Assembly (NCBI RefSeq): GCF_013394385.1
Contig: NZ_AP022834.1
Span: 124,001 to 188,000, forward strand
Direction of reading: 5' to 3'
Length of the DNA stretch: 64,000 bases
From: Kocuria sp. TGY1127_2
GTDB taxonomy: Bacteria; Actinomycetota; Actinomycetes; Actinomycetales; Micrococcaceae
Part shown: positions 41,698 through 57,094 of the stretch, piece by piece
How positions within the stretch are numbered: the first letter of the stretch is position 1
How the letters are laid out: each line of letters opens with the position of its first letter
The notes under the pieces: model-generated
The model's input: only the letters and a program-made list of their open reading frames with translations
Told to the model about the DNA's origin: nothing
The model's database searches: none
Position numbers and translations under genes: made by a program

Positions 41698-43455
41698 GTG
41701 ACAAATTTTCGTTATGTGCTGAGGAACCTCGCCTTGTTGACACGCACCGCGCTGCAACATGCCTGGGACGACCCGGTTCACCTGATGGTTCAAGGGTCTC
41801 GGAGACTGCCGCGCAGACTGGCGCAGATTTTTCGCATCCTCATGCGAGCGTTGCCGATTGCCGGTTTACGGGCGTTGTCCGCCTATTCCGATGGCGACGT
41901 GGAGAAAGCCCGCAGCCTGGCCGCGGCGGTTTTATCGGGATCGACGCGGGGTTTCGAGTACCGTCTCGCAGCGGAGGTAGCTCTCGAGGTCGGCGCGGTT
42001 GCAGTGGACCTGGCGACACTGCCTTCAGCAACTCGTGCTCGCGCCGCCTGGAAGCGAGGGAACATGTCGGAATCAATATGTATCCTCGAGGCTGATTCGC
42101 AGGGACACGAGCGAATGTCCGGCAGACTGCGCAGCGAAGCGGAAACCATGGATCCCGAATTTCTCCTGCAGACACCTAGTGCAGTGGCGAATCCGAGAGT
42201 CAGCTGGCCGACGGGTACGCCACCTCGGGCGTTTCACGTATTGACCAGTTCTCTTCCGCATACACAGTCCGGCTACACCCTGCGAACTCATCGCCTTCTG
42301 TACGCATTGTCCCAACGAGGACTGGCCGTCCAGGCCGTTACCCGATTGGGTTATCCCGCGATGATTGGAATTCCGCACGGCCGGGATGATCAAGAGATCG
42401 ATGGCGTCCGGTACCGGAGGATACTTCGGTCTCGTTTGGATCATGGACTGGCAGCCCGTCTGCAACAACAGGTTGACATCATGGCCCCGATGGTCAGAAG
42501 CTTTCGCCCAACCCTGCTTCACTGCACTACCAACTACACTAATGCGCTCATGACGGACGCATTGGCCAGAGGTTTCGACCTCCCATGGATTTATGAGGTG
42601 CGGGGGCTATTGGAGGAAACTTGGGCAGCTGGCCGAGAAAGCATCGACGCTCGGGTCGAAGCACGGCTTTCGGAACGGTTCCTCGCACTGCGCCTGCAGG
42701 AAACTCGAATGATGCACCGAGCCGATCACGTGGTGACCCTTTCCGAGGTCATGAAGACGGAGATTGTGAAGCGCGGTGTGCCTGCGGAGAAGGTGACCGT
42801 GGTGCCGAACGGTGTTGCACCCGAATTCTTCGACGAGAGGAGAATCTCGTCCGAGGTCCGAGAGGCAAATGGTCTGCCCGAAGGTGGATTCTGGGTAGGC
42901 TCGGTCTCTTCCTTGGTCGATTACGAAGGATTCGACGTTTTGCTGAGGGCCGTCGCGATTGCCCGCCAGCAGGGAACCGATCTTCGAGTCCTGTTGGCTG
43001 GGGATGGCGCATCTCGCCCCTCGCTGGAGAAACTCGCGCAAGACTTGGGGATCTCCGCTTCGGTCACTTTCACGGGAAGAGTAGGTTCCGGCACCGCCCG
43101 TGCGTATCATCGCTGTTTGGATCTTTTTTGCGTCCCCCGGACGAATGCTGAGGTGTGCCGGATGGTCACACCGCTCAAGCCGATCGAGGCATTCGCGGCG
43201 GGGACTCAAGTTCTCATGTCCGACGTGCCGCCTTTGCGGGAACTCGCAGAGGGTGCCTACGGGGTGCAGGCGAACCGGGCTCTGTTTGTCCCAGGGGCGG
43301 TGGGAGAACTGGCCGCGAAGCTCAAGGCGGCTTCAGCCGGTACTGTCTGGAGCGAGGAACTGCGTGATGCAGGCCGGAATTTTGCCTGTGAGAGAACCTG
43401 GGCCAGGAATGCGGCAACAATCGAAATGGTGTACACAGCAATGAGCAGGGCATGA
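41698..43455 (+). CDS. Family 4 glycosyltransferase with N-terminal helical extension
   Basis: A protein of 585 residues from GTG 41698. Residues 1-175 are a helical, Arg/Ala-rich region outside the normal enzyme. The GT-B domain then starts with FHVLTSSLPHTQSGYTLRTH and continues with IYEVRGLLEETW, VVPNGVAPEFF, VGSVSSLVDYEGFDVLL and a C-terminal EVCRMVTPLKPIEAFAAG. A second enzyme encoded at 50734-52809 has the same layout, so the two are paralogues. The stop overlaps the ABC permease start. Confidence 0.88.
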   Translation: MTNFRYVLRNLALLTRTALQHAWDDPVHLMVQGSRRLPRRLAQIFRILMRALPIAGLRALSAYSDGDVEKARSLAAAVLSGSTRGFEYRLAAEVALEVGAVAVDLATLPSATRARAAWKRGNMSESICILEADSQGHERMSGRLRSEAETMDPEFLLQTPSAVANPRVSWPTGTPPRAFHVLTSSLPHTQSGYTLRTHRLLYALSQRGLAVQAVTRLGYPAMIGIPHGRDDQEIDGVRYRRILRSRLDHGLAARLQQQVDIMAPMVRSFRPTLLHCTTNYTNALMTDALARGFDLPWIYEVRGLLEETWAAGRESIDARVEARLSERFLALRLQETRMMHRADHVVTLSEVMKTEIVKRGVPAEKVTVVPNGVAPEFFDERRISSEVREANGLPEGGFWVGSVSSLVDYEGFDVLLRAVAIARQQGTDLRVLLAGDGASRPSLEKLAQDLGISASVTFTGRVGSGTARAYHRCLDLFCVPRTNAEVCRMVTPLKPIEAFAAGTQVLMSDVPPLRELAEGAYGVQANRALFVPGAVGELAAKLKAASAGTVWSEELRDAGRNFACERTWARNAATIEMVYTAMSRA

Positions 43456-44384
43456 TGGCCAGGGAATTCCAGAAAAAGCTTCACAGTGGCGAAATCTCCG
43501 CGCCATGGGATCACACCCCGCCGGCTGAGGAATCACCATACAAGGAGCTGATTGCCTCCAAGAAGGTGACTCAGGTCGGCCGGAGACCACCCCTGCCGAG
43601 ATACGTGGCCGACATCTGGCAGCGTAGGGATTTCTTGCTGTACGACGCACGCGCGAGAGTTCGTACCCAGAACAGCCACCATCGATTGGGGTCCTTCTGG
43701 CTCATCGGCAAGCCGATACTTGATGTCGCCTTTTATTTCATCGTTTTCGGTCTCTTGCTCAAGGTTGACCGCGGAATCGACAATTACGTGGCCTACGTTA
43801 CGGTGGGCGTGCTGATGTTCCGGTACTCCTCCGTGGCGCTGACTCAGTCGGTCGGTATTTTGCGAGCCAACCGGGCCATGATCCACGCTTTCAGTTTTCC
43901 GCGAGCCAGCCTGGTCCTATCCTTTGTCCTCCGGGAAGCCCTAGCGGCTGGGCCATTGGTGCTGGCGATGGTGATGATGGTCCTCGTAGTCCCACCACAC
44001 GTTTTTCCGGCCTGGTCTTGGCTTCTGATCTTTCCCCTGCTGGCTATCCAGACCTTGTTCAACCTCGGCTTGGCGTTCATCGTGTCCAGGTTGGCTTTTG
44101 GGGTGCCGGATGTTTCGCAAGCCATGTCCTTTTTGTCGAGGATCTTGATGTATGGCTCAGGGGTAATATTCCCGGTCGAAAGGTTCATCAGCCACCCCGT
44201 TGTGTACGACGTCATGACAAGTAACCCAGTTTTCATCCTGCTGAGGATGTATAGAACTATTTTGTTGGACCACTCTGTGCCGTCGGGACTGGATTGGCTC
44301 ACCGTACTGTTGTGGGGCGCCGGATTGACCGTCTTCGGCCTTGTGTTCTTTTGGGGATCGGAGGAGAAGTATGGCCGTCCCTGA
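43452..44384 (+). CDS. ABC-2 type polysaccharide export permease (Wzm/TagG-like)
   Basis: A protein of 310 residues starting ATGATG over the previous stop. A cytoplasmic N-terminus of about 85 residues includes RRDFLLYDARARVRTQNSHHRLGSFW split across the amphipathic entry helix. Six membrane helices follow, with FSFPRASLVLS and the FLSRILMYGSGVIFPV segment typical of teichoic/O-antigen exporters. It forms the channel with the ATPase encoded just downstream. The two genes overlap by 14 bases. Confidence 0.92.
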   Translation: MMAREFQKKLHSGEISAPWDHTPPAEESPYKELIASKKVTQVGRRPPLPRYVADIWQRRDFLLYDARARVRTQNSHHRLGSFWLIGKPILDVAFYFIVFGLLLKVDRGIDNYVAYVTVGVLMFRYSSVALTQSVGILRANRAMIHAFSFPRASLVLSFVLREALAAGPLVLAMVMMVLVVPPHVFPAWSWLLIFPLLAIQTLFNLGLAFIVSRLAFGVPDVSQAMSFLSRILMYGSGVIFPVERFISHPVVYDVMTSNPVFILLRMYRTILLDHSVPSGLDWLTVLLWGAGLTVFGLVFFWGSEEKYGRP

Positions 44385-45174
44385 AATGCAGCAGGCATCG
44401 GATACCAGCGTCCTCGTCAGCAAGGTATCTCTCGAGTATTCGGCCAAGCGCAAGCATCGATTCGGCAAGGATTCCCGGCCCGTCGTCCGCGCACTGACCG
44501 GGGTCAGCTTCAGCGCCAGATCTGGCGAATTCATCGGGCTCGTGGGGCGCAATGGATCAGGTAAGAGCTCCCTCCTGAGGACTATCGCCGGGGTCGAGCC
44601 ACCCACCAGCGGATCGGTGTACGCCAGTTCCCAGCCTACGCTGATCGGCGTGCATGCAGCGTTGATCGGCGACCTGACAGGTTCGGAGAATGTTCTCCTG
44701 GGTTGCATGGCCATGGGGATGACCAAACAAGAAGCCACAGAAGCGCGCCCCTCGATCGAAAATCTGGCGGGTTTGGGACCGGCGATTTCTCGCCCGATGA
44801 ATACCTATTCGTCTGGCATGCAGGCTCGGTTGCGGTTCGCCATTTCTCGGGCAGGGAACCCGGAAATCCTGCTGATCGACGAGGCACTTTCCACCGGAGA
44901 CGCGTCTTTCGAAGAGCGGTCCAGGCGCTCCATGGACGCGATGCTTGAACGAGCGGGAACGATTTTTCTGGTGAGCCACGCCGCCCAAACCATCGAGGAG
45001 TTGTGTTCGCGAGCCATCTGGCTCGAGGAGGGGACTCTGGTCATGGACGGGCCAGCCGAAGAGGTGGCTCGGAGATACAGATGGTTCGCCCATATCCTCG
45101 CCCAGGGGGACAGGAACAAAGCCATCGAGGTTTTGGCCAACGCATATCAAGAACAACGCCGGCAGTTTCGGTGA
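44371..45174 (+). CDS. Polysaccharide export ABC ATPase (Wzt/TagH-like)
   Basis: A protein of 267 residues. I start at ATG 44371 with GGAGGAG upstream. Walker A is GRNGSGKSS, the signature is YSSGMQARLRF, Walker B is ILLIDEALSTGD, and the switch His is in FLVSHAAQT. It ends soon after the ATPase fold, so it lacks the carbohydrate-binding C-domain of long Wzt proteins. It powers export of the finished polymer through the permease encoded before it. Confidence 0.93.
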   Translation: MAVPEMQQASDTSVLVSKVSLEYSAKRKHRFGKDSRPVVRALTGVSFSARSGEFIGLVGRNGSGKSSLLRTIAGVEPPTSGSVYASSQPTLIGVHAALIGDLTGSENVLLGCMAMGMTKQEATEARPSIENLAGLGPAISRPMNTYSSGMQARLRFAISRAGNPEILLIDEALSTGDASFEERSRRSMDAMLERAGTIFLVSHAAQTIEELCSRAIWLEEGTLVMDGPAEEVARRYRWFAHILAQGDRNKAIEVLANAYQEQRRQFR

Positions 45175-45223: not shown

Positions 45224-46375
45224 ATGAAACGCATCATGACCATTTATGGGACACGCCCGGAGGCCATTAAGGTCGCCCCGGTGATCAAGGCTCTGGAGCA
45301 GTCCGAGCAGTTCGAGAGCCTGGCGGTGGTGACAGGACAACACAAAGAGATGCTTCAGCAGGTCAACGAGCTGTTCGGCATCAACCCCGTCGCCGATTTG
45401 GAAGTCATGACTCAGAATCAGTCGCTCAATGAGATCGTCGCGAAGGTCGTTTCGGGAATCGATCAGCAACTGGCAGACCATGCCCCTGACGCCGTGATTA
45501 TTCAGGGTGATACTTCCACGGTGATGGGTGCGGCCATTGCGGCTTTCAACCGACAGATCCCTGTTGTACACGTCGAGGCGGGCTTGCGGTCCGGAGACAT
45601 TGAATCACCGTTCCCTGAAGAGGCCAACCGCAAGCTCACGACTCAGGTAGCTCGCCTTCATCTGGCGCCGACCGCGCAGTCGAAAGCGAACCTTTTGAAC
45701 GAGGGGGTGTCAGAAGCAAACATCGCGGTCACCGGCAACTCTGTGATCGACGCGTTGATGAAAGCCGTCGAGAACTCTGAGCCGTTTACCGATCCCGACC
45801 TGGAAGAATTTGCCGGATCCAAGCGTCCTCTGGTTCTGGTGACGACGCACCGTCGGGAGAATTTGGGCGAGAACATGGTCAGTATCGGTCGTGCGCTCAA
45901 TTATTTGGCTACGGAAAACCTCGATTACCAGTTCGTACTTCCGATACACAAGAATCCGAAAGTTCGGGAAGCGGTTCTGCCGCAGATCGAGGGCTTGGAA
46001 AACGTTCTGATCATTGAGCCTTTGAACTATGGTGAATTCACTCGCTTGATTGCTTCAGCGCACTTCATCCTCACCGACTCGGGTGGGGTACAGGAAGAAG
46101 CTCCGAGCCTGGGCAAACCTGTACTCGTTCTGCGTGAGAACACGGAACGGCCGGAAGCCGTTGACGCCGGTACAGTGAGACTCATCGGTGCCAGCTATGA
46201 ACGAATCGTTGAGGAGGCTTCCCGCCTGATCCGAGATCAGGCGCATTACGATTCGATGGCCAACGCAGTTAATCCCTACGGGGATGGCAAAGCTGCTGAG
46301 CGTACCGTTGCGGCGCTGGAATCGTTCTTCGGCTTGGGCGCCAGACTTCCGGATTTCCAGCCCAATGTGTCGTGA
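45224..46375 (+). CDS. wecB: UDP-N-acetylglucosamine 2-epimerase
   Basis: A protein of 383 residues, non-hydrolysing type. It starts YGTRPEAIKVAPVIKAL; HVEAGLRSGD and LTDSGGVQEEAPSLG with ENTERPEA carry the active-site Asp, Glu and His residues. It converts UDP-GlcNAc to UDP-ManNAc. With WecC encoded at 52809 on the other strand it would supply UDP-ManNAcA. AGAGGGG precedes the ATG. Confidence 0.96.
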   Translation: MKRIMTIYGTRPEAIKVAPVIKALEQSEQFESLAVVTGQHKEMLQQVNELFGINPVADLEVMTQNQSLNEIVAKVVSGIDQQLADHAPDAVIIQGDTSTVMGAAIAAFNRQIPVVHVEAGLRSGDIESPFPEEANRKLTTQVARLHLAPTAQSKANLLNEGVSEANIAVTGNSVIDALMKAVENSEPFTDPDLEEFAGSKRPLVLVTTHRRENLGENMVSIGRALNYLATENLDYQFVLPIHKNPKVREAVLPQIEGLENVLIIEPLNYGEFTRLIASAHFILTDSGGVQEEAPSLGKPVLVLRENTERPEAVDAGTVRLIGASYERIVEEASRLIRDQAHYDSMANAVNPYGDGKAAERTVAALESFFGLGARLPDFQPNVS

Positions 46376-46811: not shown

Positions 46812-47807
46812 TTGGTTCCTTACCCGAAGCTTGCGATTCTCGGTGTCATGCTACTGATCGTAGCAGGCATCACAATCCCTTCGATTGTCATGGGACATGA
46901 CGGGTTTTCTCAAGGCAACCCGAGGAACCCCGGCGATGTTTCCGTGATGGAGGACAACGGGACGATAAAAGTTCCGGGTAAGTTCACTTCCAAGGACCTC
47001 CGGTTCAAAGCACAGCCTCATAAGCAGCATTGGGTTTCCATCGAGATGAAGGCCGAAATGCCGCTCAGCAAGGCGAAAGCGGCATTTCTGAAAGGTACGG
47101 CAACCTGTCATGACGACACCGGACACCAAGTTTTTCGGAAGCAGGCCACTGAGAATATTCTCCAGAACGACAGTGCAGTCTTTGATCTGGATGGGGTTCT
47201 GAACACGGGAGACTATGCCGGAACGATTTCATGCGAGCTTGCGGTAGAAGCGCCGTCCGGCGAGGCGGCTGCCCGAGGTGTAGAGGTTTCGGCGTCCACC
47301 TACCTCGCCGTCAGCGACCCTCTCGCCCAGGGCAAGGATGTGCGGAGCACCAAGGCATTGCCGCAAACCCTGGGGTCGGGGTCATCAAGGACCCTTTACC
47401 AAGAAACGGACTCGATTCCGCAAGGGTCCCGCCATATGCAGGTTTCGTTAGTTCTGCAGACGACGAGTTGCACTATTGTCAACGGTTCGCGAGACCCCAA
47501 TGCCTCGGGGCCTTTATGCAACAGAAGCCTGTTGGACAAAGGCGGGAGCCAGCTGCGTACCGTCATCAATGGGCAAGTGCTCGATGCTCAGGGGCGCATT
47601 TGCTCGCAATTAAAATCGATATCCGCCGACCATAAAGTCACTTACGATCAGCACCATTTTGTCCTGTCCCTAGGAAGCTCGGATACCGGAATTCCTTCGT
47701 GCGGAAAATCGGTACGCTTTTCGGTCAAGATAGTCAACGAAGGCCCGGCTGGAGCGGTCATCCACTCCGAAGGCACTTCAATGAGCCTCGCTTTTCGGGA
47801 TGATTAG
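46812..47807 (+). CDS. Membrane-anchored extracytoplasmic protein, unknown
   Basis: A protein of about 331 residues. The start is uncertain: TTG 46812 has AGGA directly against it, and the frame is open upstream. An N-terminal hydrophobic segment (LAILGVMLLIVAGITIPSI) is followed by an exported beta-rich, Ser/Thr-rich domain with six cysteines that could form disulphides (for example TATCHDDTG, TTSCTIVNG, IPSCGKSV). No family recognised. It is the last gene of the plus-strand operon and ends ten bases from the convergent lyase-hydrolase stop. Confidence 0.7.
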   Translation: MVPYPKLAILGVMLLIVAGITIPSIVMGHDGFSQGNPRNPGDVSVMEDNGTIKVPGKFTSKDLRFKAQPHKQHWVSIEMKAEMPLSKAKAAFLKGTATCHDDTGHQVFRKQATENILQNDSAVFDLDGVLNTGDYAGTISCELAVEAPSGEAAARGVEVSASTYLAVSDPLAQGKDVRSTKALPQTLGSGSSRTLYQETDSIPQGSRHMQVSLVLQTTSCTIVNGSRDPNASGPLCNRSLLDKGGSQLRTVINGQVLDAQGRICSQLKSISADHKVTYDQHHFVLSLGSSDTGIPSCGKSVRFSVKIVNEGPAGAVIHSEGTSMSLAFRDD

Positions 47808-47817
47808 AAGAAATTTC

Positions 47818-50703
47818 CTATATGGCGATTCCCTGGTCAGAATAAACCCTGGACATCAACTCTGAATATTGTTCATTGTTGGGGGACCGATGGCCCGGCC
47901 CCAGATCGTACAAGATAGTCGCATGCGATTTCGCGACGGGCTGGCTGTCCAAAAAATGACTCAGCGGTTGTTCATGGTGTTGTGTGTGAAAAGTGTCTCC
48001 TGGGTTGGACACGAGATACACGTTGCCCAGAGAACCTCCGTGTGACAGGCGCTCAATAACGCTGACCCGGCGGATGAGGGCCGGATCGGTCGGGGCCTCC
48101 CGGGTCCCGAAGGATGCTTCGAAAGCCGCTGCGGCCGAGTGCGCATGGTACATACGGACATCGGTTTGGGCGTTGAAAGCGATAACGCTGGCTTCCGGTA
48201 GGAAGGAACCGACTTGCAGGGCCGCGAAGCCCCCTCCGGAGCCGCCTTGCAGCACGACTTTGTCCACTCCGAGCGCACGAGCTGCAATATGTATTTGGTG
48301 GGCGATAGCTTCATGCAGGTCTAGCTCGGCGACGCCCATGTACCAGCCCAACCGCAGAGTGGAGGAAAGGTCCAAAGTTGGGTCGGCGAGATTCATGGTC
48401 GGGCCGGTCGACAACCCACGTTGGAATTCCATGCGTTGAAAAATTGGGATTTGAGTTTTGTTGCGATCGATCGCGCCGTGGAATTGAACAGTGAGCACGG
48501 ACCCGGGATCAGGAGCCAACGCCATGGGCAAGACGAGCGGCCCCAGATCGACGGTGTGCAGCTGAGGTTTCTTTCCGAGCTTTCTCGGGCGCAGTGACTC
48601 CGGGTGGCTCACGACAGGTAGATCGTAGAACGTCGGTCGCCAACGGGGGTTACGGGTCCAGTTAATAAGCGGGCCCCGGCTACCGCGGGGACCGTACTGG
48701 CCGGGTTTTGACCGAGGGTTGAGATCAGCAGCCGTAGTTGCCAGGCCGAAGTCCAAGTCAGCGGGAAGATTCAAGGCTTTGGCCTCGACGCCGAAACTCT
48801 GAAGAATTTCTTGGCGATCCTTGGCCGTCGCTTTCCACGCCGACTCTCGAGCCTGGGATGCGAGCTCAAGAGCGGTTTTCCGCATGGCTTGGGTCGTTGA
48901 CGCCTTGTCACCTGCTGGCTCGTCCGCGGCGTCCGTCTCCGAGGCGGGTTCGTCGGCCTTGTCCAGGGCTCTGCGAATTGTCTCCACATCTGTGCCCTCA
49001 TCGAATGTGTGGCGCGTATTTTCCCCAATGACGATATTCTCGGTGACCGCACCGTTACTGATTTTCAGTCCGAAATATCCGCGCGGGAGGCCTGGGAGGT
49101 TCTCGACCGAGGCCGTATTTCGGTGACTTGCTACAACGACAGTTATGAACCTGAATACTTCACCGGTCTTGGAGAATTCGACGACCGGCGCTGTGGCCAG
49201 AGTCTTCCACGCGGTCGCGATGTGTCCTGTGAAGTCGTTATCCTCGTCCGGGGACTCATGGATGGTGCACTCCGGGGAGATTCCGGACGGTGCTAGAACG
49301 GCGGTCTTCTCGCCCTTAACGAGTTGGACGGACGCTCCATTGTCATGAGCCTGTACGTCTGGGCCAAGTTGCCATCGTTGAACTGCAGTGACGGAATGGT
49401 TGCTGCGTACCGTATCGACGATGACGAGGTATTCACCGACGGTGGAAAAGACGACGCGACGGCGAATATTGACGTTCCTGTACCCATCATCCTCGACTGT
49501 CGCATCCCATATTGGGCCGGTGAGATGAGCAGAGATCAGAGAGACCGGTTCCCTACTCTTTCGTTTTCCGTCTTTGAGATATACCAGGCTGTGATGGTTG
49601 TGATCCGTGACGTACAAGCGCATCGGGTGCGTATGGGTGTACGAGTACTTTCCTGGATCTGTGATCCAATTGACTCCCTGGGCCGAGAAAGTCATCGACC
49701 CGCCGTCTTCATGTCCGTGGACTTTGAATCGGCCGAAGACCATAGAGAAGAAGGTTTCCTCGGCCATATCTCTCTCGAACTCTCCCCAGCCGCTCCGGCC
49801 GAACAGGTATCCGTCGTGATAGAGCTTGACGTTCTCCTCGGGGGGAGATCCTTGAGCGCCCTGGGATGTGACGTAAAGGCACGCGGGATGGTCGATCTGC
49901 GTTGCCGCGGCATCGTCGGTATCTCCGATGGGGGACAACAGACCGTCCGGGCGAGTTGCATGGGCTAGTTCTTCCGGCACTTTATCGAGAGAGTCCATGG
50001 CTTCCGGAATCTTAATTCCCGCTTGCTTCATGCGCCAGATCAGTCGATTCCACCAAATGTAATTATTCCGGTGGTAGGCGATTGCCCCTTCGGCGTTGAC
50101 TCCTTCATCGTCCCACTGCTGTTCGTAGAGCTCGACCAATCGATCAAGGGCTAGCCTGAGATGATCCCGATCTTCCAGGACTAGAGCACACACCATGAGA
50201 GCTTCATGCTGGTGCAGCGCATGATTGGCCCGGCCGATGTGCGATTCGTCCGCTAGCCAGGCGAGATGCTCCTCGAGCGATTGGATAAGCCACGGCAGCT
50301 CGTCCGGATAGAGATCTTGAAGCATGGGGACCGCTTGGGCGAGATGTACGGCGCGGATGGCCTCGATCATGTCCACCCAAGAATCAGGAGCCGGCTCGTC
50401 GTCGGTCAAATGAGGTGGACGGTTGTTGATGAACCAGTCGTGAGCCAGTGTGAGCCACTTGCTGGCAGCCGCACTGTCGCCCTGGGCCCCTGCCGCACGT
50501 AGCGGCTCGAGCCACCGCAGCATATGCAACTGGCAACGCCAGTTCTTGTCCTGGAACGGATTTGCTGTCCAGTCCATAGGCTCGTTGAGCCGCCACATGG
50601 GGTGTGGTCTCAGCAGCACTTCGCCGTTCATGACCTCAGCAAGCGTCTTGGTGTTCGGCTTCTTGCGGACTATCTGCTTCCGCGCGGCTTCCACATTGAC
50701 CAT
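47818..50703 (-). CDS. Heparinase II/III-like protein fused to an alpha/beta-hydrolase
   Basis: A protein of 961 residues with no signal peptide. Residues about 30-250 are an alpha/alpha toroid (RANHALHQHEALM, AIAYHRNNYIWW with candidate Tyr210-His211). About 290-565 are the beta-sandwich of heparinase II/III proteins, with KVHGHEDGGSM holding His329 and His331. An acidic, Ala-rich linker (580-605) leads to a hydrolase domain (about 675-961) with VLQGGSGGGFAAL, nucleophile Ser822, and later Asp and His in NPGDTFH and GPGHRS. The first half would cleave uronic-acid polymers; the second could be an esterase. Confidence 0.85.
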   Translation of the reverse strand: MVNVEAARKQIVRKKPNTKTLAEVMNGEVLLRPHPMWRLNEPMDWTANPFQDKNWRCQLHMLRWLEPLRAAGAQGDSAAASKWLTLAHDWFINNRPPHLTDDEPAPDSWVDMIEAIRAVHLAQAVPMLQDLYPDELPWLIQSLEEHLAWLADESHIGRANHALHQHEALMVCALVLEDRDHLRLALDRLVELYEQQWDDEGVNAEGAIAYHRNNYIWWNRLIWRMKQAGIKIPEAMDSLDKVPEELAHATRPDGLLSPIGDTDDAAATQIDHPACLYVTSQGAQGSPPEENVKLYHDGYLFGRSGWGEFERDMAEETFFSMVFGRFKVHGHEDGGSMTFSAQGVNWITDPGKYSYTHTHPMRLYVTDHNHHSLVYLKDGKRKSREPVSLISAHLTGPIWDATVEDDGYRNVNIRRRVVFSTVGEYLVIVDTVRSNHSVTAVQRWQLGPDVQAHDNGASVQLVKGEKTAVLAPSGISPECTIHESPDEDNDFTGHIATAWKTLATAPVVEFSKTGEVFRFITVVVASHRNTASVENLPGLPRGYFGLKISNGAVTENIVIGENTRHTFDEGTDVETIRRALDKADEPASETDAADEPAGDKASTTQAMRKTALELASQARESAWKATAKDRQEILQSFGVEAKALNLPADLDFGLATTAADLNPRSKPGQYGPRGSRGPLINWTRNPRWRPTFYDLPVVSHPESLRPRKLGKKPQLHTVDLGPLVLPMALAPDPGSVLTVQFHGAIDRNKTQIPIFQRMEFQRGLSTGPTMNLADPTLDLSSTLRLGWYMGVAELDLHEAIAHQIHIAARALGVDKVVLQGGSGGGFAALQVGSFLPEASVIAFNAQTDVRMYHAHSAAAAFEASFGTREAPTDPALIRRVSVIERLSHGGSLGNVYLVSNPGDTFHTQHHEQPLSHFLDSQPVAKSHATILYDLGPGHRSPNNEQYSELMSRVYSDQGIAI

Positions 50704-50733: not shown

Positions 50734-52809
50734 CTAGTCCACGAGGGACTGATATATCTCTGAAGCTTTGCTGGCCAATTTTCGCCAATCACGGTTTTCA
50801 ACGACCCATTCTCGTGCCTGAGAGCCAAGCACCTGTATCTCTTTCGGATTCTCCAAGAGTCTTTCCAGCTGAATTCGCAGGTCACCGGCGTCCCCTTTTC
50901 GATGGAGGAGCCCGTTGTGACCGGGCGTGACGATCTCAGCCAAAGCCGCGACGTCCGAGGCCACCACTGCCTTGCCCATGGCCATGGCCTCAAACGGTTT
51001 GAGAGGAGAAACCATCTCACACACCGGCAACGGCAAACGTGGGAATGGCGCGATGTCGATCAGTGAGTAGTGGCCTTCGACCTCGGTGTGGGGTACTCGT
51101 CCGGTGAACGTGACGATGTTTTGCAACCCCTCGTCTCGGGTGTACGCCTCGAGCTTGTGCCTTTCAGGTCCGTCGCCGACGATCAGTACATGGAAGTCAT
51201 TCCGCACGGACGCCAGTTCCCGGGCTGCCTCAAGGATCAAGTCGATCCCCTCGTAATCAAGGATTGATCCGATGTAGCCAATGACTGTTTTGTGTTGAAC
51301 CTCCAATCTATCCGCAAGCGCTTCATCTCGCGGGACCGGACGGAATCGATCTGTGTTCACGCCATTGGGGAGAACCGATATTTTTTCTGGGTCCACACCT
51401 CGATCGATCATTTCATCGCGTAAGGCATTCGTGATGGTCAGTACTTTTGTGGCTTGCTGGGCGGCGTCAGTCTCCATCCGCACCATATGCCTGAACAAGT
51501 CGCTACTACCCCAAGCAGGCTCCCGAGAGACTCTAGTGATTTCCCAAAGTCCGCGGATTTCATAGATCGAAGGAAGGCCGAGCTTTTGAGCTGTTTGAAC
51601 ACCCGTCACACCGTTGACGTAGTTGGATGCGGCGTGAATGAGGCCAACCTTTTCCTGGCGGGCGAGGGCTTCCAGCGACTCCGCATATTTCTGTGTATAC
51701 GGATACACTGGGTTCTTCCGCATGATCTCACGCTCTGGAAGCAGAAGCCGGTGATAGTTGACTCCATCCACGGTCTCCAGCTCTGGGACATCAGGAATGT
51801 CCTTGTACCCCGGCATGTCATACGGATAAGCCAAGCGGGTGACGCCGTCTACATTCCATCCGCGCTCGTTGAGCTCGTGGATGAGCCCCTGAGATCTTGT
51901 GGCGTATCCCGCTGAGTGAAACGGCAAGGAGTTGTAGAGGAGATACAAAACCTTGTTGCGCTGTACTTCGTAAGCGGGGTTTGGCCCGGGTACGGGGAAG
52001 GGGAACCCCTTGAGAGACAGCTGATAATTGGAAGTGTGCTCTTGGGAGACCTTTTCCAACTGTTGTTTTCCCCAACGATCATGTGGATAGACCTTGAGGT
52101 ACGCGCGTATATAGACCTCTGTCTGTTCCGGCTTGCGCGCTTGCTGGCTGCGACGAATCGCGCGTCTTGCGGAATCGGCCGGAATCGCCGTTACTGCGCA
52201 GCGTTGAATGATGCTCTCGGTGAGCCCCGATCTTCCTCTCGCCATGGACACGATTAACATGGTGCGATCCGCGTCCTGTTGGCTGAGTCCCTCGAGCGCA
52301 GTTTCGAGAGTTTCCTCCTTGGAACCAACTCCCGTCATGACCGCGTTGACCCGTATGGCTGCTCGCACGACAGGGTCCGGGGAATGTTCCAAAATGCGGA
52401 GTCCTCGTTCCAATTTATGAGGAATCATGTAATCGAGGCCAGCGCGATGGAACTCAGGCGCTGTGAGTATGTCTTCTTCCAAGCGCTTCAGCGCCCACCG
52501 CTGTCGCGAGGAATGAGCTTTGATTTCTCCCTGGACAGCCATGAACAACTCGAGAGCGTCCACATTGGCGCCGTCGGCTTCCAGCGCCAGAGCCAGAATT
52601 TCTTCAGCGGCTCGGGCTTCTGCGGATTCGACGAGGAATCTTCCATACTCGGTGAGAACCTCGGTATTCGCACCCGTCAAGACCAGCAATTCCCGGTACG
52701 CAATCCGAGCCTGATTCGGCCTCATCTTTTTTATGTCGGAAAGGCGAGTCCGAACGGATGGCGTTTCGTCGGGGCGGCGATGCGCGGCACTGCGATCGTT
52801 TAGGCTCAT
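50734..52809 (-). CDS. Family 4 glycosyltransferase with long N-terminal helical region
   Basis: A protein of 691 residues. Residues 1-270 are helical, with repeat-like pieces (AEEILALALEADGANVDAL, YIRAYLKVYPHDRWGKQQL) resembling TPR units. The GT-B enzyme follows: YLLYNSLPFHSAGYATRSQ, IYEIRGLWEITR, VLPNGVNTDRF, IGYIGSILDYEGIDLI, VGDGPERHKL and VCEMVSPLKPFEAMAMG. Its catalytic half is clearly related to the enzyme encoded at 41698-43455. It starts by overlapping the wecC stop (TAATG). Confidence 0.9.
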   Translation of the reverse strand: MSLNDRSAAHRRPDETPSVRTRLSDIKKMRPNQARIAYRELLVLTGANTEVLTEYGRFLVESAEARAAEEILALALEADGANVDALELFMAVQGEIKAHSSRQRWALKRLEEDILTAPEFHRAGLDYMIPHKLERGLRILEHSPDPVVRAAIRVNAVMTGVGSKEETLETALEGLSQQDADRTMLIVSMARGRSGLTESIIQRCAVTAIPADSARRAIRRSQQARKPEQTEVYIRAYLKVYPHDRWGKQQLEKVSQEHTSNYQLSLKGFPFPVPGPNPAYEVQRNKVLYLLYNSLPFHSAGYATRSQGLIHELNERGWNVDGVTRLAYPYDMPGYKDIPDVPELETVDGVNYHRLLLPEREIMRKNPVYPYTQKYAESLEALARQEKVGLIHAASNYVNGVTGVQTAQKLGLPSIYEIRGLWEITRVSREPAWGSSDLFRHMVRMETDAAQQATKVLTITNALRDEMIDRGVDPEKISVLPNGVNTDRFRPVPRDEALADRLEVQHKTVIGYIGSILDYEGIDLILEAARELASVRNDFHVLIVGDGPERHKLEAYTRDEGLQNIVTFTGRVPHTEVEGHYSLIDIAPFPRLPLPVCEMVSPLKPFEAMAMGKAVVASDVAALAEIVTPGHNGLLHRKGDAGDLRIQLERLLENPKEIQVLGSQAREWVVENRDWRKLASKASEIYQSLVD

Positions 52810-54062
52810 TACCGCCAGATGCCTTTGGTGTCGATAACCGTCTTGCCTTTAAGCGTCGTAGCCGGAAGGGCCTTGAACTCTCGGTGGTCGACCAGCAACA
52901 ACACCACGTCGACTTCATCCAATGCTTCGTGCAAATCCGCCGACCGCACATTCTTCATGGACCCGAGTGAGGTGGGCAAAGACTCCACATTGGGCTCGAC
53001 CGCGAGGACGTCGGTCTCGGGCAGGGAAACGGCCAAGCGTTTGGTGATGTTCAGAGCCGGCGACTCGCGAAGGTCGTCGATATCCGCTTTGAAGGCCAGG
53101 CCCAGCACGGCCACCTTCGGCTTCTCCAGGTGCTGAACCGCGTGGGTCACCTTGCTGATCACCCAGTCCGGCTTGCCGTCGTTGACCTCACGAGCCGTGC
53201 GAATCAGATTCGAGTTCTCCTTGTCCGCAGCGACGATGAACCACGGATCGACGGCAATGCAGTGGCCGCCCACACCTGGGCCGGGCTGGAGAATGTTGAC
53301 ACGCGGATGGTGATTGGATAGCTCGATGAGCTCCCAAACATTGATGCCCAGGTTGTCCGCAATCAGCGACAACTCGTTGGCGAAGGCGATATTGACATCC
53401 CGAAACGAGTTTTCGGTGAGTTTCGCCATTTCCGCAGTCGTGTCGTCGGTCGGCAGGAGTTCGCCTGTGCAGAAGGTTGCGTAGATTTCAGTTGCCCGAC
53501 GCGTGGCCTCAGGGGTTTGTCCACCGATGATTCGATCGTTGGTGATCAACTCTTCCATAGCTTGGCCAGGGAGGATGCGCTCCGGGCAGTGGGCAAAGTG
53601 AATTACGGGCTTATCATCCGGGTTCGGAGAGCCGTCGGCCACCAGATCGGGCCGAAGCGTCAAGATCTTTTCGGCCATCTTTTTGGTAGACAACGGCGGT
53701 GATGTGGATTCGAGAATGATCAACTCATCACCAACGAGCAAGGGGGCAATGGACTCGGCCGCGGCGAATACGTAGGAAAGATCGCCCTCGTGATTTTCCT
53801 TGAAAGGTGTGGGTACCGCCAGGATGTAGGTATCCGCGTGCGGCATGAGGGTGGTCGCCGTGAGGTTCCCGGAATCGACCGCTTTTTTCAGCAACTCTTC
53901 GAGACCCGGCTCGACGATAGTTACTTCTCCGCGGTTGATGCGACCCACGTTGTCTTCATTGATATCGACGCCCGTCACGGTAAGGCCGTGGTTGGCCATC
54001 GTGACTGAGGTGGGAAGGCCGATGTATCCGAGACCGACGAATGCGACAGATGGCTGAGTCAT
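52809..54062 (-). CDS. wecC: UDP-N-acetyl-D-mannosamine dehydrogenase
   Basis: A protein of 417 residues starting at ATG 54062 (MTQPSVAFVG); the frame extends to 54143 without support. The Rossmann motif is VGLGYIGLPTS. ESTSPP and HCPERILPG belong to the substrate site, and catalytic Cys is in PGVGGHCIAVDP. The C-domain has VLGLAFKADIDDLRESPA. It oxidises UDP-ManNAc to UDP-ManNAcA with two NAD. It begins the minus-strand polysaccharide operon, preceded by a good promoter at 54192-54221. Confidence 0.95.
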   Translation of the reverse strand: MTQPSVAFVGLGYIGLPTSVTMANHGLTVTGVDINEDNVGRINRGEVTIVEPGLEELLKKAVDSGNLTATTLMPHADTYILAVPTPFKENHEGDLSYVFAAAESIAPLLVGDELIILESTSPPLSTKKMAEKILTLRPDLVADGSPNPDDKPVIHFAHCPERILPGQAMEELITNDRIIGGQTPEATRRATEIYATFCTGELLPTDDTTAEMAKLTENSFRDVNIAFANELSLIADNLGINVWELIELSNHHPRVNILQPGPGVGGHCIAVDPWFIVAADKENSNLIRTAREVNDGKPDWVISKVTHAVQHLEKPKVAVLGLAFKADIDDLRESPALNITKRLAVSLPETDVLAVEPNVESLPTSLGSMKNVRSADLHEALDEVDVVLLLVDHREFKALPATTLKGKTVIDTKGIWR

Positions 54063-54191
54063 AAAGGCTGAATTCCTCTGAGGGGATCGGCGATCATGTG
54101 CGCCGACCAATATTGGATGCGATGTGATGAAGATGGTGGCCACTGATCCCGGCGCGCGCCTTATCGTCGGATATTCGTATTGCCTCGCGAA

Positions 54192-56239: not shown

Positions 56240-56335
56240 AAAGACTCCTAGCGCGATAGGAAATGGGCCATTGGCACGGACGCCATTAGTCTAACCACTA
56301 AGTCGAAATTAAATGGTCGGTTGGGAGAGACATCT

Positions 56336-57094
56336 ATGACGGAGTCGCAGAAGGACCGGGTCCCTCGGCTCTTCGTATTCGGGTCTTGCGTGTCTCGAGA
56401 TGCGGTTGAGCGACTTGGGCCAGGCTCATACGAGCTTCGGCGTTACATAGCGCGGCAATCGGTGATTTCCGTCGGTCATGACGCCTCAGAATTCCTGCCC
56501 ACCAAGTTGGGGCTTCAGCATGCCTTCCAGGAGCGAATGGTCGTCGGCGACTGGCGCGGTGACCTGTGGGAGCAGATTGATTCAGCCGGTGAATTCGACT
56601 TGCTGCTGTGGGACCTCGTCGACGAACGGCACGGCGTCTATTGGTTCATGAATGGCGGGGTCGCCACCAGGTCAGTGGACGCACTCTCGGCCGAGCCTGT
56701 CGCTGAGGTGCTGCCCGGGGAACAATGGGTGCCCTTTGGAGATGAGATGCATTTTGAAGCATGGAAGGAAGCAGTCAGCGAATTCAGCGAGGGTCTACGA
56801 AAACGTGGCCTTTGGGAAAAAGTCGTGGTCATCAAAGTGCCGTGGGCGGTCGAGGGACGCAATGGCGAATCTGTTCCGCCCAGCCTGGGATTGTCCGCGA
56901 GTCAGGCCAACCAGCTCTTCGAGCCTTACTACAGCTATTTGGAAGCCCTGGGGTTCGATGTGCTGTCCGTGGCAGGAGATGTTTTCGGCGATTCCGAACA
57001 CCGCTGGGGTCTCGCTCCGTTCCATTACATCCCCGAGGTCTACGACGAAATCGATGCGGGGATACTGCAACGTTTCGGGGCCCTAGAGAGCTGA
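56336..57094 (+). CDS. DUF6270 domain protein
   Basis: A protein of 252 residues starting at ATG 56336 after GGGAGAGA. The defining start is RLFVFGSCVSRDAVE, with the Ser-Cys pair, and DLLLWDLVDERHGVYW and HYIPEVYDEI later. Soluble, no signal peptide. Members occur near glycosyltransferase and capsule genes, and the GSC-S pattern resembles the first block of SGNH hydrolases, but no reaction is known. Placed at the edge of the polysaccharide locus. Confidence 0.8.
   Translation: MTESQKDRVPRLFVFGSCVSRDAVERLGPGSYELRRYIARQSVISVGHDASEFLPTKLGLQHAFQERMVVGDWRGDLWEQIDSAGEFDLLLWDLVDERHGVYWFMNGGVATRSVDALSAEPVAEVLPGEQWVPFGDEMHFEAWKEAVSEFSEGLRKRGLWEKVVVIKVPWAVEGRNGESVPPSLGLSASQANQLFEPYYSYLEALGFDVLSVAGDVFGDSEHRWGLAPFHYIPEVYDEIDAGILQRFGALES

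Follow-up and report, generated by a model that had tools for sequence, protein, structure and literature searches.

Gene content of the locus

The window, a 64,000-nucleotide stretch of Kocuria sp. TGY1127_2 (contig NZ_AP022834.1), carries a set of polymer synthesis and export genes, one of which joins a heparinase III (PL12)-like domain to an alpha/beta-hydrolase-fold module (Table 1). The 961-aa frame of this fusion gene, read from 50703 to 47818 on the minus strand, contains no internal stops, and an earlier interpretation of the DNA alone (hereafter, the sequence-only reading) was correct in describing a single chain co-oriented with wecC and a GT4 gene. The GT4 gene overlaps wecC by one base and the fusion gene starts 30 bp past the GT4 end. 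From this spacing and the shared orientation, wecC, GT4 and the fusion gene look like one operon, convergent with a plus-strand GT4-GT4-ABC-ABC-wecB operon.

Table 1. Features of the window and of related loci (positions are in the window unless a locus is named).
Feature	Position	Strand	Basis
GT4 glycosyltransferase, 410 aa	40459..41691	+	
GT4 glycosyltransferase, 585 aa	41698..43455	+	
Polysaccharide ABC exporter, permease subunit	43452..44384	+	ABC2_membrane below cut-off, synteny
Polysaccharide ABC exporter, ATPase subunit	44341..45174	+	sequence, synteny
wecB-like UDP-GlcNAc 2-epimerase	45224..46375	+	
Membrane-anchored/secreted 331-aa protein, convergent with fusion gene	46812..47807	+	sequence, synteny
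Fusion gene, PL12-like domain + CsaC/Asp2-type alpha/beta-hydrolase-fold module, 961 aa	47818..50703	-	ORF, Pfam, profiles
O-acetyltransferase-like module, residues 725-961, S822/Q846/D903/H906/H938	47821..48531	-	profiles, conserved residues, model
Acidic/helical linker, residues ~567-622	48838..49005	-	sequence
PL12 (heparinase III)-like domain, residues ~16-549	49057..50658	-	profile vs 4FNV/4MMH, residue conservation, low-confidence model
GT4 glycosyltransferase, 691 aa, apparent operon with fusion	50734..52809	-	sequence, synteny
wecC-like UDP-N-acetylmannosamine dehydrogenase, apparent operon with fusion	52809..54143	-	
Two-domain glycosyltransferase, 660 aa	54257..56239	-	
DUF6270 protein	56321..57094	+	domain fused to same acetyltransferase module in relatives
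Type II fusions	L025:10377-13604, L098:2144-6424, L103:12388-15261, L104:6495-9704, L105:4607-9163		

Across genomes, a conserved frame (GT4-ABC permease-ABC ATPase-wecB facing GT-wecC-GT) surrounds variable tailoring genes. The 331-aa protein, not assigned to a family, is kept at the locus in several genomes, with 23–30% identity outside Kocuria sp. 36.

The presence of WecB and WecC implies UDP-ManNAcA. A parallel is offered by Micrococcus luteus, which belongs, like the window organism, to the Micrococcaceae. The available text of PMC3005890 describes a Glc-ManNAcA teichuronic acid in this species and does not mention acetylation or epimerisation; the likeness drawn here concerns the polymer. 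By analogy with this compound, and from wecB and wecC, the Kocuria locus most likely makes a ManNAcA-containing wall polymer.

A recurrent domain architecture

Among the genomes examined, 24, from at least five actinomycete families (codes f1, f11, f6, f17 and f38), encode both domains in a single ORF. This count comes from searching relatives, the order and the class, and then scanning every ORF of the fetched loci with HMMs. Kocuria sp. 36 encodes an end-to-end relative with 93% identity and the same neighbours, and five relatives from another family, f11 (G584, G609, G489, G046 and G375), align from end to end, across the junction, at 40–44% identity. Such alignments show that the junction did not arise in assembly, and recurrence of the architecture in 24 genomes rules out a misassembly or frameshift as the source of the fusion. 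The sequence-only reading had named recurrence beside wecB/wecC as potential support for its proposal, and both the link to these genes and the recurrence of the fusion are borne out. That reading had also said that such an enzyme would be unusual; the literature searched yielded no account of the fusion, but the architecture is recurrent rather than rare. It is a real domain architecture built from known kinds of domain, and apparently undescribed. A plasmid search gave partial matches only, phage records searched with the N-terminal half gave no match, and a single scan of genome contigs returned Kocuria sp. 36 only.

Three main types of fusion can be distinguished, and one protein from f38 (L132, 885 aa) stands apart from them. 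Type I is window-like and includes the f11 relatives. Type II proteins (957–1518 aa) have lost the lyase-fold catalytic residues and kept the acetyltransferase module: N160, E205, Y210, H329 and Y355 are gone in all five members (L025, L098, L103, L104 and L105). The type II lyase fold appears to be a pseudoenzyme, possibly used for polymer binding. Type III proteins (about 890–1050 aa), found mainly in other Micrococcaceae, have a divergent C-module with an SKGG elbow like that of CsaC. A quick tree was made from 87 C-modules, some of them from short loci in which fusion partners may be missed; on it the lyase-fused state requires four changes, at least three of them forced by well-supported branches.

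Each half is also found with other partners. The acetyltransferase module, which has a match in 102 of 295 genomes from the bacterial family, is fused in relatives to GT2, GT61, PF11316 and DUF6270 proteins and to a methyltransferase (read from sequence), or stands alone. The lyase fold and a GT4 share one cytosolic chain at L104:1055-5089 (by Pfam) and at L025:5016-9041 and L105:746-4594 (by similarity), and a methyltransferase-heparinase fusion on pSymB of S. meliloti AK76 (L117:7110-9422) adjoins one gene for an ABC-2 permease and another that resembles a capsule-export component.

DUF6270, which is also encoded next to the locus in the window, is a recurrent partner of the acetyltransferase module (L035:7126-8835, L101:2327-4336, L112:460-2466 and L116:11633-13675); in L112 the nucleophile Ser of the module is replaced by Cys. 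An FGSC motif hints that DUF6270 proteins might be SGNH-like enzymes, which is a guess. Two acetyltransferase-type modules stand in tandem in single ORFs at L082:1471-3288 and L106:321-2039.

The N-terminal half is a PL12-like lyase fold

Pfam detects Hepar_II_III_N at residues 35–213 (2.6e-9) and Hepar_II_III_C at residues 325–467 (2.7e-13) of the fusion protein, these two families (PF07940 and PF16889) being above cut-off. Profile A3, built from 25 lyase-fold relatives, gives a full-length match to heparinase III in the PDB (4FNV, 5.4e-44, profile positions 6–476; 4MMH, 1.9e-43). The structure model of this half is poor (pLDDT 52, pTM 0.43, four input sequences), so the fold assignment rests on the sequence profiles; the best Foldseek matches of the model are HepIII structures, and human dermatan sulfate epimerase 1 is also listed.

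The profile match maps N240, Y294 and H424, the catalytic residues of HepIII, to N160, Y210 and H329 of the fusion. N160, E205, Y210, H329 and Y355 are invariant among the relatives (29/29 cytosolic and 19/19 other members), and H331, D333, H371 and R415 are likewise conserved. The sequence-only reading had placed His329 and His331 correctly in the motif KVHGHEDGG, and its heparinase II/III-type lyase domain is upheld by Pfam and the intact catalytic residues. The PL12 enzymes heparinase III and HepC (4FNV, 4MMH, 5JMD) resemble the N-terminal half in the full-length profile match and in the catalytic Asn, Tyr and His. HepIII differs in being extracytoplasmic and degradative, whereas the locus-type proteins stay in the cytosol and are joined to biosynthetic partners.

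The invariance of all catalytic residues in types I and III argues that the lyase-fold half of these proteins, the window's type I fusion included, keeps its chemistry. It also makes improbable a lyase-fold half that is only a polymer-binding scaffold, positioning the chain for the acetyltransferase, although type II, which kept the acetyltransferase module after losing the lyase-fold residues, would fit such a role.

Active-site residues do not tell lyases from epimerases (PMC8006597). The invariant double-Tyr pair Y210 and Y355 occurs in lyases as well (PMC8006597), and when cytosolic and secreted lyases were compared residue by residue no clean epimerase/lyase switch was found, H161 and H211 being the only consistent differences. 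Human dermatan sulfate epimerase 1 (6HZN; PMC8006597), a polymer epimerase with a lyase fold and active site, resembles this half in its toroid/sandwich fold and would share its His/double-Tyr chemistry, which it uses to make rather than degrade polymer; it differs in its absence from the A3 sequence-profile matches, its eukaryotic origin and its action on GlcA.

The C-terminal module resembles CsaC and Asp2

Beyond the lyase fold, an acidic stretch at ~568–605 corresponds to the linker that the sequence-only reading had described, and no Pfam family was found in the last 400 residues of the fusion protein. Profile A2, made from twelve diverse C-modules, has as its best PDB matches SacC/CsaC (6YUO, 4.6e-7) and then Asp2 (6LNW, 3.1e-6), with Gap2 and the XcbB/CpsF-type protein 9HVZ as weak matches behind them. 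The NCBIfam Asp2 and XcbB/CpsF models each match 5 of the 12 A2 members below their curated cut-offs (best Asp2 match 5.3e-6), and the profile similarity between Asp2 and the C-module is weak but repeated, in both directions. An AlphaFold model of the C-module (pTM 0.75) has an alpha/beta-hydrolase fold with 6YUO among its top matches (Foldseek E 3.6e-7, TM 0.68 by target, rmsd 4.0). By E-value, esterases and CsaC match this model roughly equally, and switching between esterase and transferase comes easily to alpha/beta-hydrolase enzymes.

CsaC uses a Ser114-His228-Asp198 triad with an unusual extension via Gln138, His201 and Tyr79 (PMC7501274). A second C-module profile aligns the whole catalytic region to 6YUO, at the Ser, Gln, D..H and GH positions; S114, Q138, D198, H201 and H228 of CsaC correspond to S822, Q846, D903, H906 and H938 of the fusion, and Trp787 aligns by profile with Tyr79. 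These residues are strongly conserved (S822 in 83/85 modules, Q846 in 81/84, D903 and H906 each in 78/81, H938 in 69/69), all five are present in 62 of 67 complete modules, and the Ser-to-Gln spacing is 24 in 72 of 80, as in CsaC (PMC7501274).

In sequence and model, then, the module is akin to CsaC/SacC of N. meningitidis serogroup A (6YUO/6YUQ/6YUV; PMC7501274), a capsule O-acetylating enzyme with the same alpha/beta-hydrolase fold and the same Ser, Gln, D-x-x-H and GH elements at matching spacing. CsaC differs as a stand-alone tetramer of ~250-aa chains acting on the serogroup A ManNAc-phosphate polymer, whereas the fusion module is joined to a PL12-like domain and has Trp787 for Tyr79. Asp2/Gap2 of the accessory Sec systems (6LNW, 6OYC; PMC5578698) are intracellular glycan O-acetyltransferases, and differ in acting on GlcNAc of Ser-rich adhesins and in a separate export role.

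Taking these comparisons together, the C-module is probably an O-acetyltransferase of the CsaC/Asp2 kind. The sequence-only reading had located Ser822 in GGSGGG correctly and had read this half as an alpha/beta-hydrolase; the conserved Ser, Asp and His and the modelled fold now speak for such a module. De-esterification, the activity that it first attached to this half, is not supported, since the nearest solved relatives by profile are CsaC/SacC and Asp2 and the Gln-extended triad of CsaC is present; these features disfavour a plain esterase. Its fallback, a non-hydrolytic Asp2-like protein, was the better reading as regards Asp2, but Asp2 is a catalytic acetyltransferase and not inert (PMC5578698).

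A cytosolic branch of lyase-fold proteins

The fusion protein has no signal peptide, the most hydrophobic 15-residue segment in its first 75 residues averaging 0.26, in agreement with the cytoplasmic location first suggested. None of the 28 locus-type lyase-fold proteins tested has a signal-like N-terminal segment. Of 14 relatives from elsewhere, 13 do, and several of these also have long C-terminal extensions. No GH88/105 unsaturated-uronyl hydrolase was found in the genome. Lacking both a signal peptide and this partner, the window gene was rejected as an extracellular catabolic enzyme.

The same observations bear on the proposal of the sequence-only reading that the protein cleaves and deacetylates a polysaccharide, as a bifunctional catabolic or remodelling lyase plus carbohydrate esterase. 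Such an enzyme would have intact lyase residues and a Ser-Asp-His triad on an alpha/beta-hydrolase fold, as this one does, but the missing signal peptide and GH88/105 partner, the biosynthetic locus, the CsaC/Asp2-type sequence and the Gln-extended triad make it very unlikely.

A proposed role in tailoring before export

Since the same fusion recurs beside genes for polymer building and export, it probably decorates rather than breaks down polymer. A chain exported by an ABC transporter is completed in the cytosol. Acetyl-CoA is present there, and an acetyltransferase in that compartment is therefore reasonable, while a degradative lyase is not. A role in tailoring before export is likely, and we consider it probable that the fusion is a cytoplasmic two-module enzyme for this task, uniting an acetyltransferase with a lyase fold that acts at uronate C5.

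In this scheme, the C-module would take acetyl from acetyl-CoA onto Ser822, forming an acetyl-enzyme with His938/Asp903 together with Gln846/His906 as the extended triad, and would then transfer this group to a hydroxyl of a sugar in the growing wall polymer that contains ManNAcA, much as CsaC acetylates its own polymer. The PL12-fold half would bind the same chain, and Tyr210/His329 chemistry would take place at C5 of a uronate, probably the ManNAcA supplied by WecB/WecC. Re-protonation would amount to C5 epimerisation, giving L-GulNAcA, which we judge somewhat likelier than beta-elimination. The finished chain would exit via the ABC exporter.

The following considerations, with the cytosolic setting, lead us to rank an epimerase plus acetyltransferase slightly above a lyase plus acetyltransferase. 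Polymer epimerases with a lyase fold exist. For V. cholerae VPS, C5 inversion of D-ManNAcA is the presumed source of L-GulNAcA, and the enzyme is unassigned (PMC3901696, PMC4432689). Finally, one V. vulnificus strain requires VV0358, a heparinase-like gene beside its capsule cluster, to make capsule, although its authors suggested degradation of misplaced capsule (PMC6037467). We tentatively entertain, at less than even chances, a lyase-fold half that works on the polymer as a cytosolic C5 epimerase and converts D-ManNAcA to L-GulNAcA, while the acetyltransferase attached to it fixes or patterns the product.

Rather unlikely, in our judgement, is a cytosolic chain editor, in which a true lyase trims or terminates the polyuronate before export, for length control or to clear stalled chains, and the C-terminal half acetylates and thereby protects finished stretches. 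In its favour, every PL12 catalytic residue is intact, the closest solved relatives of the N-terminal half are lyases, and alginate is protected from AlgL-type lyases by its O-acetyl groups (PMC4432689). Moreover, a 32%-identical heparinase-like protein on an IMG/VR viral contig (L139:1772-3709) adjoins tail-fibre-like (polysaccharide deacetylase) and CW_7 lysin-like genes, a setting that would suit cleavage of a host polymer. On the other side, cutting in the cytosol wastes polymer, and the fusions to GT4s, methyltransferases and acetyltransferases, like the lack of a GH88/105 partner in the genome, look biosynthetic. The L139 protein itself is a candidate phage depolymerase or lysogenic conversion gene.

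Implications

The lyase-fold proteins that lack signal peptides are usually annotated as degradative heparinases; they make up a biosynthetic branch, physically joined to glycosyltransferases, methyltransferases and O-acetyltransferases. The CsaC/Asp2 acetyltransferase type would extend to actinobacterial wall polymers, where a single variable locus combines its module with many different partners. An epimerase in the lyase-fold half would give a testable candidate for the missing enzymes that convert D-ManNAcA to L-GulNAcA, and would found a candidate class for the unassigned ManNAcA C5 epimerases, such as the one required for V. cholerae VPS (PMC3901696). Paired with its acetyltransferase, such an epimerase would follow in bacteria the same logic as dermatan sulfate epimerase with its sulfotransferase.
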